NCBI GenBank assembly: GCA_015065505.1 | Contig: SVQE01000016.1 | Location: 1-42,988 of the forward strand | Length of the DNA stretch: 42,988 nucleotides | Direction: 5' to 3' | Source: Oscillospiraceae bacterium | GTDB lineage: Bacteria > Bacillota > Clostridia > Oscillospirales > Acutalibacteraceae | Part shown: positions 12,429 to 26,160 of the stretch, one piece after another | Numbering within the stretch: the first letter of the stretch is position 1 | Layout: every line of letters begins with the position of its first letter | Position numbers and translations under genes: made by a program | Notes under the pieces: model-generated | Seen by the model: only the letters and a program-made list of their open reading frames with translations | Database searches by the model: none | Told to the model about the DNA's origin: nothing

Positions 12429-13640
12429 TTAAGCCATAAAGCTTCTTATTACGCTTTCGCAATCCTGTGCATTCATAATCTTTGGAACGGGATAACCGGG
12501 GTTACCTTCCTTAAGAGCACGGGAAACAAGGGTTTGCATATCCTCTTCCTTGATGAAATCAAATTTATCGGGGATATTCATCGCCTTGTTCATTCTTCTT
12601 ATCTCTGCTATAAACACCTTGCCTTTTTCTTCAACGGACATAGCATCGTTTGTGATGCCGATAATATCCGCAAGCTTTGCAAGCTGAGGATAAGCAGCGT
12701 CGCCGTACCAATCAAGCACGTAGGGAAGAATTACTGCATTTGCAAGACCGTGGGGCGTTCCGTAAAGACCGCCGAGGTTATGAGCTATTGCGTGAACATA
12801 GCCAACGAATGCACGGGTAAACGCACATCCTGCAAGGTATGAACCCTTAAGCATATTGCCCCTTGCTTCAACATCCTTTCCGTCTGCGTAAGCCTTTTCA
12901 AGATTATCGTAGATAAGCTTGGTTGCCTCCTCCGCATAGCGTATAGTAGATTTTGTGTTGCTCTTACCGATATATGCCTCAACTGCGTGAGTTAATGCAT
13001 CCATACCTGTTGTCGATGTAATGTGCGGCGGCAAACCTACGGTTAAAGCCGGGTCAAGCACCGCGTATTTCGGACGAAGGCAGATATCATTGATAGCATT
13101 TTTCTCATGAGTTTCGGGATCGGTTACAACAGCAGCAACGGTTGTTTCCGAGCCTGTTCCTGCGGTGGTCGGCACTGCAAAGAACGGCGGAAGCTTTTTG
13201 AGAACCTTAAGGTAGCCGCGCATTTCACGAACTGACTGATTGGGCTTAACAACTCTTGCACCTGCAGCCTTTGCACAGTCCATTGAAGAACCGCCGCCGA
13301 ATGCAATTATTCCCTGACAGCCGTTTTCGATATACATATCCTTGCAATCCTCAATGTTCGGAATTGTCGGGTTAGGCTGAACGCCGTCGTAAACAACATA
13401 GTCAACGCCAACCTCTTCAAGCTTTGCGAACATCGGGTCAAGAAGATGCAATCCCATAAGCCCTTTATCGGTTACAACAAGCACCTTTTCAATTCCCTTG
13501 TTTTTAATAAACGCGGGAAGCTCAAGCACGCTGTCTGCACCTTCAAGAAGCTCGGGCTCACTCCAGTCCATGAAGCACATAGCAACCTTAAAAACATTTT
13601 GATAAATTCTGTACCAAACTTTTTTTAAAGTCCAGAGCAT
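12429..13640 (-). CDS. Iron-containing (group III) alcohol dehydrogenase
   Basis: A cytoplasmic NAD(P)-dependent dehydrogenase of 403 residues. The N-terminal Rossmann-like domain carries FGGGSSMDCAKAAG. The helical metal-binding domain follows, with TTAGTGSETT, MDALTHAVEAY (Asp/His ligands) and YVHAIAHNLGGLYGTPHGLANA (the two further His ligands), so the iron site is complete. Substrate is unknown; lactaldehyde reductase or butanol/1,3-propanediol dehydrogenase are possible. The RBS AAAGGAGG is strong. The first ~25 residues are an unusual aromatic and basic extension before the common ADH core. Monocistronic, with its own promoter and terminator. Confidence 0.9.
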   Translation of the reverse strand: MLWTLKKVWYRIYQNVFKVAMCFMDWSEPELLEGADSVLELPAFIKNKGIEKVLVVTDKGLMGLHLLDPMFAKLEEVGVDYVVYDGVQPNPTIPNIEDCKDMYIENGCQGIIAFGGGSSMDCAKAAGARVVKPNQSVREMRGYLKVLKKLPPFFAVPTTAGTGSETTVAAVVTDPETHEKNAINDICLRPKYAVLDPALTVGLPPHITSTTGMDALTHAVEAYIGKSNTKSTIRYAEEATKLIYDNLEKAYADGKDVEARGNMLKGSYLAGCAFTRAFVGYVHAIAHNLGGLYGTPHGLANAVILPYVLDWYGDAAYPQLAKLADIIGITNDAMSVEEKGKVFIAEIRRMNKAMNIPDKFDFIKEEDMQTLVSRALKEGNPGYPVPKIMNAQDCESVIRSFMA

Positions 13641-13709: not shown

Positions 13710-13718
13710 TGCTATAAT
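13710..13718 (+). promoter_or_regulatory. Extended -10 promoter of the four-helix-bundle gene
   Basis: TGCTATAAT, a TGn extended -10 with a perfect TATAAT at 13713-13718. Transcription would start near 13725, so the left heptad array (13728-13762) would be at the very 5' end of the RNA and could pair with the right array. Confidence 0.6.
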
Positions 13719-13727
13719 TATAAAAGA

Positions 13728-13762
13728 GTTGATAGTGGATAGTGGGTAGTGGGTAGTTTTTA
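13728..13762 (+). repeat. Left inverted heptad array of the four-helix-bundle unit
   Basis: Units in seven-base register: GTTGATA, GTGGATA, GTGGGTA, GTGGGTA, GTTTTTA. The inner 16 bases (13747-13762) are a perfect inverted match to 14140-14155. The array ends exactly where the ribosome binding site AAAGGAG (13762-13768) begins. Confidence 0.85.
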
Positions 13763-13773
13763 AAGGAGATATT

Positions 13774-14142
13774 ATGGCTGTACAAAGTTATAAAGATTTG
13801 ATTGTCTGGCAAAAATCAATGAAACTGGTTACAGATGTTTATTCATTAACCAAGCAACTGCCTAAAGAAGAGATATATGCCCTTTCAACTCAAATGAGAC
13901 GCGCAGTAATATCCATCCCTTCAAACATTGCAGAGGGTCAAAAAAGAAAATCACCAAAAGAATTCTGCAACTTTTTATCTATTGCAAGAGGCTCTTTGGG
14001 AGAATTGGAGACCCAATTATTAATATGTGTTCAATTAAACTATTTATCTGAACAGCAAATTAATAATGCCACAAACCTTTGTGAAGAAATATCTAAAATG
14101 CTGAATGCATTGATTGAAAAAATCAGCGAAAAAGAATCATAA
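13774..14142 (+). CDS. Four-helix-bundle protein (S23/IVP, bAvd-like family)
   Basis: A 122-residue all-helical protein. YKDLIVWQKSM at the N-terminus, QMRRAVISIPSNIAEGQ in the middle and RGSLGELETQL in the third helix are the hallmarks of the four-helix-bundle family. That family includes proteins encoded in 23S rRNA intervening sequences and the Avd accessory protein of diversity-generating retroelements. Members form basic pentameric barrels thought to bind nucleic acid. No reverse transcriptase or template/variable repeat is nearby, so it is not a retroelement Avd here. It has its own promoter and RBS and is enclosed by inverted seven-base arrays; its stop codon is inside the right inverted repeat. 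Function unknown. Confidence 0.88.
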   Translation: MAVQSYKDLIVWQKSMKLVTDVYSLTKQLPKEEIYALSTQMRRAVISIPSNIAEGQKRKSPKEFCNFLSIARGSLGELETQLLICVQLNYLSEQQINNATNLCEEISKMLNALIEKISEKES

Positions 14143-14176
14143 AAACTACCCACTATCCACTAACCACTACCCACTA
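14140..14176 (+). repeat. Right inverted heptad array of the four-helix-bundle unit
   Basis: ACTACCC, ACTATCC, ACTAACC, ACTACCC, ACTA from 14145, in exact seven-base register. TAAAAACTACCCACTA (14140-14155) is the reverse complement of 13747-13762, and the match continues with three mismatches over the next two units. The TAA stop of the four-helix-bundle gene is the first three bases of the repeat. Confidence 0.85.
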
Positions 14177-14197: not shown

Positions 14198-15463
14198 ATG
14201 CAAAAGACCTGCCTTTTCGGCGAAGAATCGGTTTACAGAATCCCTTCTCTTGTTAACACAGGCAAGGAGCTTGTTGCTGTTTGTAACAGGGAAACAAACG
14301 ATAACGATTACGGATATATGGAGCTTGTTTGCCGTAGGAGCGAGGACGGAGGAAAAACCTGGAGCGAGGTTCAGCTTATTGCCTGCCCTCCTGCAAGGGA
14401 AATCAGCAAGGATTACAATAATTCAAAAACCGCATTCTTTATCGACCCCGTTATGTGTGTTGCTCAGAACGGCGATATAGTTCTTCTTGCCACCTTCTTC
14501 CCCGAATGCAAAGGAATTATGGATAAGAAATATCTTGAAAAGAAAGCAGCGTTTTCGGGCTTTGATTCAAAGATTTATCCCGTTGTTTACGACCGCGACG
14601 GCAATTACTACATAGTTCTTGATAACGGCAAAATTATCGACTCAAAAAAAGCAAAAACGCCCTACCGTATTGAAGGGTTGGGCGAGCTTTACAAAGGCGA
14701 GGAATATGTTGGCAACATATATTTAAACGGCGCTATGGGCAAATCCGACAGCGATATGGCAACAACCTTCGGCGCTCCGCTTAAAGCACCTAAAAGAAGC
14801 TATGTATATCTTTTCAAATCCTCGGACGGCGGCAAAACCTGGAGCGAGGGCAAGGATATAACAAGGGATATTTATTTCGACGATGACGGTTATTTTCTCG
14901 GAATTGCACCGGGCAGCGCGCTTGTTACCAAAAAAGGAAGAATAATTGTTCCGCTTTACACACTTAAAAACACCGTTTGTATTTATTCCGACGATAACGG
15001 CGAAACCTGGCAGAGAAACAGGCGTTTGCCGTACACCGAGAACATTGATGAATGGACAGCGGTTGAAAGCGAGGATGAAATCATTTTTGCATTCGGCAGA
15101 GCTAAGAAATTCGGCAAAACACCCGTTAGTGCTTCGGGCGATAACGGCATAACCTGGATTAAAGAAAAGAAAGCCGCATTCAAAGCACCCAAATGCCAGA
15201 AAAACGCAATAAGCGTTGGAAACAGAATATTTGTTTCCCATCCGTCGGGCAAAAAAAGAGAAAACGGTGTTATTTCCGTCGGCGAGTTTATTTACGATAA
15301 ATACGGTAATATTAAGAAGATTAAATGGCAGAAGGAAGATATTAAAATCAACGAAGGCTTCTTCGCATATTCCTGCCTTACTAAGCTTGACGATAACACG
15401 CTCGGCATTCTCTATGAGGACGCACCGAGCGCACACATTGTTTTTGAAACGATTGAAATATAA
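14198..15463 (+). CDS. Sialidase (GH33-like, BNR/Asp-box repeats)
   Basis: A 421-residue six-bladed beta-propeller glycosidase. YRIP at residues 13-16 is the conserved RIP motif containing one of the three catalytic arginines. At least four Asp boxes are seen: SEDGGKTW (48-55), SSDGGKTW, SDDNGETW and a SGDNGITW variant. The start at 14198 follows CGGAGTGA; an upstream in-frame extension would translate the heptad array and is rejected. There is no signal peptide or anchor, so it is probably cytoplasmic or exported by an unusual route. No sialic acid catabolism genes are in the window. It lies downstream of the four-helix-bundle unit on the same strand. Confidence 0.85.
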   Translation: MQKTCLFGEESVYRIPSLVNTGKELVAVCNRETNDNDYGYMELVCRRSEDGGKTWSEVQLIACPPAREISKDYNNSKTAFFIDPVMCVAQNGDIVLLATFFPECKGIMDKKYLEKKAAFSGFDSKIYPVVYDRDGNYYIVLDNGKIIDSKKAKTPYRIEGLGELYKGEEYVGNIYLNGAMGKSDSDMATTFGAPLKAPKRSYVYLFKSSDGGKTWSEGKDITRDIYFDDDGYFLGIAPGSALVTKKGRIIVPLYTLKNTVCIYSDDNGETWQRNRRLPYTENIDEWTAVESEDEIIFAFGRAKKFGKTPVSASGDNGITWIKEKKAAFKAPKCQKNAISVGNRIFVSHPSGKKRENGVISVGEFIYDKYGNIKKIKWQKEDIKINEGFFAYSCLTKLDDNTLGILYEDAPSAHIVFETIEI

Positions 15464-19782: not shown

Positions 19783-19879
19783 AATTACGAATTACGAATT
19801 ACGAATTTTGGGGCGCAAGCGCCGATTATAATCGCCGTCTGCAAGACCCTTGAACTCGGAACTCGGAGCTCGCAACTAA
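19783..19879. repeat. Heptad-array element with core, lysS-ilvD gap
   Basis: Left array: AATTACG at 19783, 19790 and 19797, then AATTTTG. Core: GGCGCAAGCGCC hairpin, GATTATAATC palindrome (TATAAT at 19827-19832), then CGCCGTCTGCAAGACCC. Right array: GAACTCG at 19852 and 19859, GAGCTCG at 19866, CAACTAA at 19873, the last containing the lysS stop codon. The right array reversed (CGAGTTC) resembles the left unit (CGAATTA), so the arrays are inverted relatives. Nearly the same element occurs at 21725-21835. Confidence 0.85.
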
Positions 19880-21708
19880 TCTATTGGTTTCATTGTCGGG
19901 AAGAGTAATACATCCCTGATTGAATAGCTGTCTGTAAGCAGCATAACAAGTCTGTCGATTCCGATTCCCAGACCGCCTGTGGGAGGCATACCGTATTCAA
20001 GTGCGGTTACGAAATCGCTGTCTATCATATTAGCCTCGTCGTCGCCTGCTTCTCTGAGCTTCATCTGAGCTCTGAAACGCTCCATCTGGTCAATCGGGTC
20101 GTTAAGCTCTGAATAAGCATTGCCGTACTCTGTGCCGAGAATGAAGAGCTCAAAACGCTCGGTAAGTGCAGGGCAAGAGGGCTTTTTCTTTGTAAGCGGG
20201 CTAACCTCAACGGGATAATCGATAATAAAGGTTGGCTGAACGAGCTTATCCTCAACAAATTCCTCAAAGAAGGAATTGAGAATATCGCCCCAGGTTGCCT
20301 TGCCGTTTTCAATTTCAATATCCTTTTCCCCGGCAATTTCTATTGCCTTTTCGTTATCGCCCATAAAGGATGCAAAATCAACGCCGCTGTACTGCTTAAC
20401 GGCATCCATCATTGAAAGTCTCTTGAAAGGAGTTTCAAGGTCTATTTCAACGCCGTTGAAGGTTATATGAAGGTCGTCGCAAACTGCTTTAGCAGCATTT
20501 CTTATTATGTTTTCGGCAATATCCATCATACCGTGGTAATCGGTGAATGCCTGATAAAGCTCTATTGTTGTAAACTCGGGATTATGGCGAACATCCATAC
20601 CCTCGTTTCTGAATATTCTGCCGATTTCATAAACTCGCTCCATACCGCCGACAATGAGTCTTTTAAGATAGAGCTCGGTTGCGATACGAAGATACATATC
20701 CATATCGAGTGTGTTATGGTGAGTTATGAACGGTCTTGCCGAAGCACCTCCGGGGATGAGGTTAAGCATAGGAGTTTCAACCTCGATAAATCCGAGAGAA
20801 TCAAGATAATTTCTGATTGTTGTTATTATCTTTGAACGCTTGATAAAGGTTTCCTTAACATTAGGATTCATTATCATATCAAGGCAGCGCTTACGGTATC
20901 TTGTATCTGTGTCGGTTAAACCGTGGAATTTTTCGGGAAGCGGAAGAAGGGACTTGGATATAAGTCTTATTTCCTTTGCGTGAACGGAAATTTCACCCGT
21001 TCTTGTTTTGAAAACAAATCCCTTGATTTCAACAATATCGCCGATATCCCAGGTTTTGAATGCCTTGAAAACATCCTCGCCTACATCATTCATACGAACA
21101 TACGCCTGAATTCTGCCGTTTCTGTCCTGAATATCAATGAAATTAGCCTTGCCCATATCGCGCCAGGTCATAATTCTTCCTGCGATAACAACCTCTTTTT
21201 CCTCAAGCTCATCAAAGTTTGCCTTGATTTCATCGCTGTGGTGGGTCTGCTCGGCAAGAGTTATTTCAAACGGGTCGTTGCCTTCTGCCTGAAGAGCCTT
21301 GAGCTTATCTATTCTGATTTGCTTTTGCTCGTTTTCAGAGAGAACAACCTCTGCCATTGCCATCTGTGCAGCGGCAGCATTGTTGCCGATAGCTTCAATA
21401 GCCTCAAGCGCTTCCTGCTCGCTGTCTGCCTCGCCTTCAAGAGCAACTGCGCCTGTTTGAAGGAAGAGGGTATATTTAACCTTGTCGCCGCAATTTTCAA
21501 CAAGGTATTTCGGGTTTGTTTTTTCTTCATCACCTGCAATAGCGTTCTGAACCTTCATTCTGCTGTTCTTCTTAACAGCCTTAACGCCTCTCTTGCAAGC
21601 ATCTTCTTTATCGAACACCGGCGACTTTCCGAGAACCTTTTCATCAACCATGAATTCAAAGGAGAATTCAGTGTCGCTGTGCTTTGTTATTTCAAACTTT
21701 CCTGCCAT
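19876..21708 (-). CDS. lysS: Lysyl-tRNA synthetase (class II) with N-terminal DUF1508-like extension
   Basis: 610 residues against about 490-500 for bacterial LysS. The synthetase starts near residue 124 (LSENEQKQIRIDKLKALQAEGNDPF). It has the OB-fold anticodon-binding domain, class II motif 2 (GRIFRNEGMDVRHNPEFTTIELYQAF) and motif 3 (GLGIGIDRLVMLL). The first ~115 residues look like two DUF1508/YegP-type repeats: GKFEITKH...GVKAVKKN (3-48), and NPKYLVEN...ALEAIEAIGNN (65-110). The start at 21708 has GGAAAGG upstream. The internal Met at 116 or 118 has no Shine-Dalgarno, so the extension is probably translated. It follows greA, the common Clostridia order. Confidence 0.92.
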   Translation of the reverse strand: MAGKFEITKHSDTEFSFEFMVDEKVLGKSPVFDKEDACKRGVKAVKKNSRMKVQNAIAGDEEKTNPKYLVENCGDKVKYTLFLQTGAVALEGEADSEQEALEAIEAIGNNAAAAQMAMAEVVLSENEQKQIRIDKLKALQAEGNDPFEITLAEQTHHSDEIKANFDELEEKEVVIAGRIMTWRDMGKANFIDIQDRNGRIQAYVRMNDVGEDVFKAFKTWDIGDIVEIKGFVFKTRTGEISVHAKEIRLISKSLLPLPEKFHGLTDTDTRYRKRCLDMIMNPNVKETFIKRSKIITTIRNYLDSLGFIEVETPMLNLIPGGASARPFITHHNTLDMDMYLRIATELYLKRLIVGGMERVYEIGRIFRNEGMDVRHNPEFTTIELYQAFTDYHGMMDIAENIIRNAAKAVCDDLHITFNGVEIDLETPFKRLSMMDAVKQYSGVDFASFMGDNEKAIEIAGEKDIEIENGKATWGDILNSFFEEFVEDKLVQPTFIIDYPVEVSPLTKKKPSCPALTERFELFILGTEYGNAYSELNDPIDQMERFRAQMKLREAGDDEANMIDSDFVTALEYGMPPTGGLGIGIDRLVMLLTDSYSIRDVLLFPTMKPID

Positions 21709-21724: not shown

Positions 21725-21835
21725 AATTACGAATTACGAATTACGAATTACGAATTTAGGGGCGCAAGCGCCGATTATAATTGCCGTCTGCAAGCCCCTT
21801 GAACTCAGAACTCGAAGCTCGGAACTCGCAGCTTA
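21725..21835. repeat. Heptad-array element with core, greA-lysS gap
   Basis: Left array: AATTACG four times (21725-21752), then AATTTAG. Core: GGGGCGCAAGCGCC, GATTATAATTGCCG, TCTGCAAGCCCC. Right array: GAACTCA, GAACTCG, AAGCTCG, GAACTCG, CAGCTTA (21801-21835), the last containing the greA stop codon. This is the sister copy of 19783-19879 and matches it across the core with few differences. Confidence 0.85.
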
Positions 21836-25338: not shown

Positions 25339-25340
25339 CA

Positions 25341-25472
25341 GTGAAGAGTGAAGAATGAAGAGTGAAAAGTGTTGGTTACTCGGCGCTTTGCGCCTCGGAC
25401 AATAAAATATAATCGCCGGCTGCAAGCCCCTCAACTCTTCACTCTTACCTCTTAACTCTTAACTTCAAACTT
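25341..25472. repeat. Heptad-array element with core, cyclophilin-groES gap
   Basis: Left array: GTGAAGA, GTGAAGA, ATGAAGA, GTGAAAA (25341-25368). Core: CGGCGCTTTGCGCC hairpin, TCGGACAA, TATAATCGCCG (TATAAT 25408-25413), CTGCAAGCCCC. Right array: TCAACTC, TTCACTC, TTACCTC, TTAACTC, TTAACTT (25431-25465). Left and right are clear inverted relatives (GAAGAGTGAAGA against TCTTCACTCTT). Confidence 0.85.
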
Positions 25473-26089: not shown

Positions 26090-26160
26090 ATAAAATCGCC
26101 GTCTGCAAGACCCGATAACTATGCACTATGCCTTATGCACTATGCACTCAATAATGCACT
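26090..26160. repeat. Half heptad-array element, GH2-cyclophilin gap
   Basis: Only one side survives: core ATAAAATCGCCGTCTGCAAG followed by ACCC, then AACTATG, CACTATG, CCTTATG, CACTATG and a degenerate continuation to 26160. The GH2 stop codon (26148-26150) and its last residues lie within the array. The opposite array is missing next to the cyclophilin RBS. Confidence 0.75.

Follow-up and report, generated by a model that had tools for sequence, protein, structure and literature searches.

A four-helix-bundle S23 gene closed by inverted heptad arrays: a probable mobile, IVS-like element in bacterial transcripts

An S23 gene enclosed by two inverted arrays of a seven-base repeat was found in a 42,988-nt stretch of DNA from an Oscillospiraceae bacterium (contig SVQE01000016.1; the whole stretch is called the window here). 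We consider it probable (about 0.65) that gene and arrays form a mobile element which resembles the intervening sequences (IVSs) of 23S rRNA, resides in host transcripts and is closed by a terminal RNA stem, with the S23 protein as its probable mobility determinant. The first-pass annotation, which had proposed a candidate autonomous element, is partly supported as a whole. The features of the locus are as follows.

12429..13640, minus strand: host flank, iron-containing alcohol dehydrogenase (ADH; PF00465/PF25137), the same neighbour as in relatives.
13710..13718, plus strand: extended -10, TGCTATAAT (TG-N-TATAAT), a putative promoter that most likely belongs to the host BNR/sialidase gene and is used by the element.
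13727..13762, plus strand: left arm, a period-7 array of AGTGGRT units and terminal inverted repeat, which pairs with the right arm in the RNA fold.
13762..13768, plus strand: AAAGGAG, resembling a Shine-Dalgarno sequence for the S23 gene, where the left arm ends on its inner side; read from the sequence.
13774..14142, plus strand: S23/23S_rRNA_IVP four-helix-bundle gene, 122 aa (PF05635, TIGR02436, 2gsc, 2rld).
14140..14175, minus strand: right arm, the reverse-complement period-7 array, starting at the S23 stop codon.
14198..15463, plus strand: host flank, BNR-repeat sialidase-like gene (PF13088), which adjoins the ADH gene in relatives; its start is put at the ATG behind a GGAG.

The two arms are 36 nt each, 89% complementary and spaced by 377 nt, and they were classed as period 7 by Tandem Repeats Finder (13727-13757 and 14145-14176). 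An S23-like gene between inverted heptad arrays had thus been correctly described, and the size of about 450 bp given for the unit agrees with the 449 nt measured between the outer arm ends. The perfect inversion reported for the inner 16 bases was confirmed (13747-13762 against 14140-14155), as was the placement of the array ends at the first A of AAAGGAG (13762) and at the TAA stop codon (14140-14142). With up to three mismatches, TAGTGGGTAGTGGGTA matched the window seven times, always at the arms, where 0.09 matches were expected. In the predicted RNA, the arms pair in both the minimum-energy and the centroid fold (z = -6.3; none of 100 shuffles was as low). The S23 protein matched PF05635 over the whole domain (E = 1.9e-44, 150.7 bits against a cut-off of 33.8) and TIGR02436 (E = 6e-42, 142.3 bits against 24); PF05635 and bAvd were the only matches in the Pfam search. 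Solved structures related by sequence are the four-helix bundles 2gsc (XCC0516; E 3.3e-24) and 2rld.

The claim that the S23 gene has its own extended -10 was not supported. The same position reads TGTTATAAT in genome G038 and TGATATAAT in G006, two relatives that lack the S23 gene, and TGATTTAAT in G051. Since a -10 stands at this place in two relatives without the gene, it most likely serves the BNR/sialidase gene downstream, and a promoter owned by the element was rejected. When 60 genomes of the genus were searched at the DNA level, 57 gave matches. The empty ADH-sialidase sites that the annotation had proposed to look for were found in G038 and G051, where ADH lies beside BNR with a short intergene and neither S23 gene nor array; further empty junctions were found on plasmids (below). 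All that the intergene of G006 holds is a small inverted pair without the gene, AGTGGACA...TGTCCACT; its right edge is roughly as far from the start of the sialidase gene as that of the window element. The relatives' intergenes thus place the S23 gene and its arms between the host promoter and the ribosome-binding site of the host gene.

A census of S23 flanks combined 34 loci listed of 132 PF05635 matches (98 genomes, 53 with a match) with 80 named loci, the best 80 of 584 relatives as ranked by protein similarity; of these 114 loci, 112 had enough flank and two were dropped. Each locus was scored by the best ungapped inverted match between its 200-nt flanks, with the 99th percentile of mismatched pairs as threshold. 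This threshold was exceeded at 60/112 S23 loci against 3/161 control ORFs of the same loci (Fisher p 3e-25) and missed by 52/112; direct matches exceeded it at 12/112. Within the window's subfamily, a tandem array was detected on at least one side at 84/95 loci (51/157 control ORFs) and on both sides at 56/95 (10/157), while 11/95 had no tandem array above threshold. The period was 7 in 64/70 upstream and 62/70 downstream arrays, and period 8 made up most of the remainder; at L101, L119 and L122, words of the AGGCACAA and AGGCAACA type replace period 7. The heptad word differs from locus to locus, and AG occurs within 68/75 heptads read in the upstream sense, against a mean of 37.3 and a maximum of 50 in 2000 for shuffled heptads. 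Represented among the 80 named loci are Bacillota, Bacteroidota, Spirochaetota, Pseudomonadota, Chloroflexota, Planctomycetes, Acidobacteria and records from candidate phyla. The comparison of homologue flanks suggested by the annotation yielded inverted period-7 flanks in many phyla. That the gene and its two repeats came together by chance can practically be dismissed on these counts, together with the seven matches against 0.09 expected in the window.

Other S23 subfamilies are flanked differently. Many B-type genes (SGTSIGAN subfamily) are flanked by mini-hairpin arrays instead. At L004, L045, L053, L172, L177, L194 and L336, the flanking arrays consist of mini-hairpins that vary in sequence, with a constant 7-9 nt word such as ATTTCATA or AATTCATG between them.

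Filled and empty states of the same junction were compared on named cyanobacterial plasmids. A tblastn search with S23 against plasmids gave 31 records; near relatives lacking S23 were found for four filled loci, and fourteen regions were read. Five junctions are filled in some plasmids and empty in others, with flanks 84.6-99.7% identical over the pairs compared (L347 and L348 were read only and stand outside this comparison). The first, upstream of a TrbI/VirB10 operon gene, is filled in Trichormus (NC_007412) and Scytonema (AP018264) and empty in Tolypothrix (NZ_CP064880) and Nostoc carneum (AP018182), with flanks 98.6/97.4% and 98.8/96.4% identical. Here the inserted segment begins directly after a stop codon and has GTAA on either side; at this junction, Brasilonema carries a hairpin with the same type of heptad but without the gene, and Nostoc C052 an apparently decayed remnant. 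At the second, S23 lies between cas10 and cmr3 in Picosynechococcus PCC 7003, and plasmid pAQ6 of PCC 7002 is empty (flanks 84.6/94.3%). The third is filled between an integrase and the next gene in Calothrix brevissima; the plasmids of three relatives are empty, with 3 bases there. The fourth is filled in a Nostoc plasmid and empty in three relatives, and one plasmid has a broken S23 (L350). The fifth, a neighbouring junction filled in Nostoc NZ_CP046706, holds a different S23 with different arms; its relatives have an overlapping TAATG at this place. The plasmid insertions are placed at stop/start junctions of neighbouring genes. Target duplications are short and not uniform (GTAA at the first site and ATG at the fifth, with no clear duplication at the others).

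The arms are missing from the empty sites and are therefore part of the unit that is present or absent; on sequence comparison, gene and arms come and go together. The filled state may be the derived one, a gain rather than a precise loss. General insertion into pre-existing arrays was rejected because the empty sites read carry none. S23 genes were also found inside cas operons of type I-D (L208, NC_019429) and type III-B (L211, NZ_CP016476), the latter absent in PCC 7002. No S23 match was obtained in the phage collection. In a flank check of viral and plasmid loci, 11 of 27 usable loci (20 of 21 viral and seven plasmid, two near-copies) scored above the null.

S23 genes are strongly co-oriented with their neighbours. 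Among named loci (best 80 of 584), S23 lies in the same direction as the same-strand neighbour pair that spans it in 51/55 cases (p 2e-11); of the other 16 named pairs, 12 are convergent and 4 divergent. Co-orientation was found in 39/39 of the genus/order set, where both neighbours had to lie within 400 nt. Adjacent pairs that do not span S23 lie on the same strand in 165/215 cases. Based on the co-orientation, the element seems to ride on host transcription.

At one shared locus, S23 lies directly behind the same gene in four genomes (L003, L166, L173, L182). From its C-terminus we take this gene to be glmS; the place behind glmS is also used by Tn7. Five S23 rows of this locus group in the tree (91/85), but three heptads are present despite the grouped proteins: CCGAGTT (two genomes), GCGTTAC and CCGTGGA. 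Own-pair arm scores are 38, 27, 41 and 18. The clearest case is L182, whose arms match each other at 18 and those of all other glmS-like loci at 9 or less; an inner hairpin is common to the other three, whose cross-pairs therefore reach 42 and give no clean control. At a locus shared by Flavobacteriia (7 loci), own arms scored 12.6 against 10.5 for cross-pairs. Heptads followed protein kinship only weakly (Mantel r = 0.18, p 0.0005), a correlation confounded with host kinship.

Such observations would also fit arms that are a selected cis-acting structure for RNA processing or insulation, with S23 a cellular gene spread by ordinary horizontal transfer and homologous recombination. The operon co-orientation and stop/start placement agree with a role at the RNA level, and different heptads with matching arms at a single glmS-like locus, as well as the weak tracking of protein kinship (r 0.18), also speak for this explanation. 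We nevertheless regard this explanation as unlikely. A precise unit at unrelated junctions is a hallmark of mobile elements, and gene-less derivatives stand at the same junctions; moreover, G051 carries two pairs of S23 copies that are nearly identical (98%) although their outer flanks are unrelated.

Elements without the gene were identified in the window by Tandem Repeats Finder and reading.

19783..19878, no strand: gene-less composite, (AATTACG)n - hairpin GGCGCAAGCGCC - GATTATAAT - CCGTCTGCAAGACC - inverted (GAACTCG)n, a layout repeated at other G000 sites.
21725..21833, no strand: gene-less composite with a centre near-identical to that of 19783-19878.
25340..25464, no strand: gene-less composite, (AGTGAAG)n - hairpin - centre - inverted (AACTCTT)n.

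Their layout is an array, a hairpin, an AT-rich centre, a second hairpin and an inverted array of a second heptad. By eye, at least 7 of 20 AATTACG sites read are gene-less composites of this kind (L280, L281, L283, L284, L288, L292, L293). At L217 and L351, gene-less elements occupy junctions where relatives carry the gene, in support of the annotation's suggestion that gene-less arrays resemble non-autonomous copies. The first two composites of the window bracket a gene on the minus strand (19876-21708), each with AATTACG in one arm and a GAACTCG-type word in the other. Period-7 arrays are also seen in the window at 634-664 (ACTGACC) and 26118-26148 (ACTATGC), beside the hairpin-like GTGCGCAGCAC and GCCGTCTGCAAGACC. 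A separate palindromic repeat containing GGACCGCTTGCGGTGGATGAGGTGTG was observed beside or in place of heptad arrays at L007 and L012 of G000 and at L298 of G038.

Heptad arrays also occur alone. In the window's own genome (G000), the array TAGTGGRTAGTGGRTAGT is present elsewhere at 10 sites exactly, at 17 with up to one mismatch and at 24 with up to two. Across the 60 genus genomes, TAGTGGR arrays number 50 in G000, 18 in G033, 3 in G057 and 1-2 in four genomes, with none in 53. The AGTGG-armed S23 genes found in the genus are in G000 and G033, which still rank first and second (45 and 7) when matches at their S23 loci are subtracted. AGGTGTT arrays were counted in G006 (90), G049 (21), G005 (15), G000 (5) and G059 (1), with none in 55/60, and S23 genes with such arms are in G006 and G049. 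AATTACG arrays are spread more widely (G000 148, G051 143, G049 90, G038 28, G015 26, G006 12, six more 1-4), and S23 genes armed with this word are in G051 and G049 only. Among the S23 matches listed for the genus, none with AATTACG arms belongs to G000 (assembly 89%), G038 or G015, and none with AGGTGTT arms to G005 (assembly 73%); the prediction of matching S23 genes in G005 (AGGTGTT) and G015 (AATTACG) thus failed. For GCGTTRC, G051 ranks first, with all but one site on the S23 contig, where a backwards control also matches (9). On these counts per genome, the link between array abundance and S23 arms is strong for AGTGG and AGGTGTT, partial for AATTACG and uninformative for GCGTTRC.

An intrinsic terminator precedes solo AGTGG arrays at 9/10 sites, these being all exact-match sites outside the window, against 16/400 random positions. 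The corresponding values are 5/20 against 54/800 for AGGTGTT (p 0.01) and 2/20 against 34/800 for AATTACG (p 0.22), where each set of 20 was drawn from a longer list of sites and the random points are not limited to intergenic DNA. Adjacency to a terminator is thus strong for AGTGG arrays alone. At two such terminators, arrays of other heptads are present in some relatives and none in others.

The terminators directly ahead of solo AGTGG arrays (9 of 10 sites), and the lack of a matching S23 in the array-bearing G000, G038, G015 and G005, may be taken to mean that the arrays arise independently, by slippage or another factor, and that S23 genes insert into or are captured by them. Heptad arrays are also reported to be common in bacteria (PMC4679880; PMC4692102). 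This explanation appears improbable to us: no array is present at the empty sites read, arms match in inverted rather than direct orientation (60 against 12 of 112), and at the two terminators genomes differ in the heptad or have no array.

Movement by reverse transcription was considered as well, in which an Avd-like S23 protein would aid, in trans, a reverse transcriptase resident in the cell, with template slippage extending the arrays. Arrays behind the T-runs of terminators recall group IIC introns, and the window protein shows a weak kinship with bAvd/Avd (PF22296 39.2 bits, cut-off 40; DivGenRetAVD 43.8, cut-off 80). No PF00078 match was found in G000 (89% complete), and in the genus only one of the 8 genomes with A-type S23 has one (G051; G038 has a fragment only), against 15/52 others; the evidence therefore does not require a reverse transcriptase, and we regard this route as disfavoured and very improbable.

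In the mobile-element reading that we prefer, the unit would be a discrete selfish element of about 430-450 bp, consisting of one S23 gene closed by terminal inverted heptad arrays. It would insert into transcribed spacers, often at stop/start junctions, in the direction of transcription; the window copy would have entered the sialidase gene's 5' region, behind the promoter and ahead of the start codon, and would owe its transcription to the host promoter. At the RNA level, the arms are predicted to form a stem of about 30 bp with the S23 reading frame in the loop, the S23 ribosome-binding site lying just inside the stem and that of the host gene just outside. The stem is probably a substrate of RNase III, as in rRNA IVSs, and by this analogy the element may be excised from the transcript without ligation, so that an insertion would do the operon almost no harm. 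Arm-hairpin-arm copies that lack the gene would be non-autonomous derivatives, and S23 may act in trans on solo arrays.

To our knowledge, S23 has no known catalytic domain. The polar residues Q40, N51, E54 and E77 are invariant in 151/151 full-length S23 proteins, and S47 (99%) and R43 (95%) are nearly so. Because S23 is the sole gene of the unit and has these invariant residues, it is probably the element's own mobility determinant, and movement driven by S23 is what we infer from the sequences. Against this stands the suggestion, made for Coxiella, that its S23 protein is not made in vivo (PMC4990558). A broader proposal is made tentatively, at somewhat below an even chance: S23 may be the catalytic or essential factor of an unrecognised class of mobile elements in many phyla, with locus-specific inverted heptad ends, which seeds solo arrays and would explain many dispersed heptads, the rRNA IVSs being the special case known best.

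No literature joining S23 genes with heptad arrays was found in a search that left out preprints and most subscription journals. If true, our reading ties the abundant heptanucleotide arrays of bacteria to an abundant four-helix-bundle protein family without known function. If many S23 genes are free-standing elements of the same build, the IVS is a special case of a large family, and mobility becomes testable in cultivable bacteria at filled/empty pairs such as Picosynechococcus PCC 7003/7002; the roughly 30-year-old puzzle of the ribosomal RNA insertions may thereby become testable. An S23 gene in a cas operon might be an insertion and not an immunity gene.

Several known systems share parts of this organization. 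REPIN/RAYT and MITE systems combine dispersed short repeats, gene-less inverted derivatives and one small trans-acting gene. The S23 system likewise has dispersed repeats, gene-less inverted derivatives and a small candidate trans-acting gene, but by Pfam S23 is not a Y1 or DDE transposase, and the ends vary by locus. The Y1-type transposase of REPIN/RAYT is absent from the unit, whose protein matches PF05635 and, by sequence, four-helix-bundle structures. As to IS elements and MITEs, S23 stands alone in the unit, with PF05635 and bAvd as its Pfam matches and no transposase of known fold, and a fixed terminal inverted repeat is lacking, as the heptad varies (three at the glmS-like site). Avd of diversity-generating retroelements belongs to a related four-helix-bundle family, both of whose profiles fall below their cut-offs for the window S23; the genome carrying the window, as far as its 89% assembly goes, lacks the reverse transcriptase of such retroelements.

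A 2008 work by Elhai reportedly deals with small dispersed repeats. Dispersed heptads have been described as TAACTGA in Beggiatoaceae (PMC4679880) and as GGGAATC/GGGGAYT in Xanthomonas/Nostoc (PMC4692102); they are tandem and intergenic like the arrays presented here. Most arrays of Beggiatoaceae precede start codons in a single orientation, whereas ours are the inverted ends of an S23 element; the same 2015 paper speculates that a repeat-binding protein may be the mobile element (PMC4679880). S23 has no occurrence in the main texts of PMC4679880 and PMC4692102. The 23S_rRNA_IVP genes of cas loci belong to the same family: in PMC3936711, 23S_rRNA_IVP is listed among CRISPR-Cas-associated functions, and the motif GxxRxxxSxxxNxxE given there agrees with R43, S47, N51 and E54; the cas10-cmr3 case described here is a segment absent from PCC 7002.

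The closest parallel is the IVS of 23S rRNA. Such sequences were already known around 1990; RNase III excises them, and they are still called unclear in functionality and origin (PMC4990558). The Coxiella IVS is 428 nt long, with a 28-bp closing stem and an S23 ORF in the loop (PMC4990558); it is built like our unit, and the analogy drawn by the annotation, that of a free-standing equivalent, holds. IVSs (Coxiella, Leptospira, Salmonella) and the window unit share a long terminal stem (here 36-nt arms, 89% complementary and paired in the fold) whose loop holds an S23 ORF, a similar size (428 and 449 nt), a position inside a host transcript, a sporadic presence, here with empty sites, and a suspected mobility. 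Unlike an IVS, the window unit lies in an mRNA spacer between Fe-ADH and BNR and not in a 23S rRNA gene (no Rfam match at the gathering threshold in the window), and heptad-array arms with a locus-specific word, gene-less derivatives and solo arrays are features found here. The rRNA IVS is thus the nearest known kind, and what is new is the location, the heptad-built ends and the dispersed gene-less forms.
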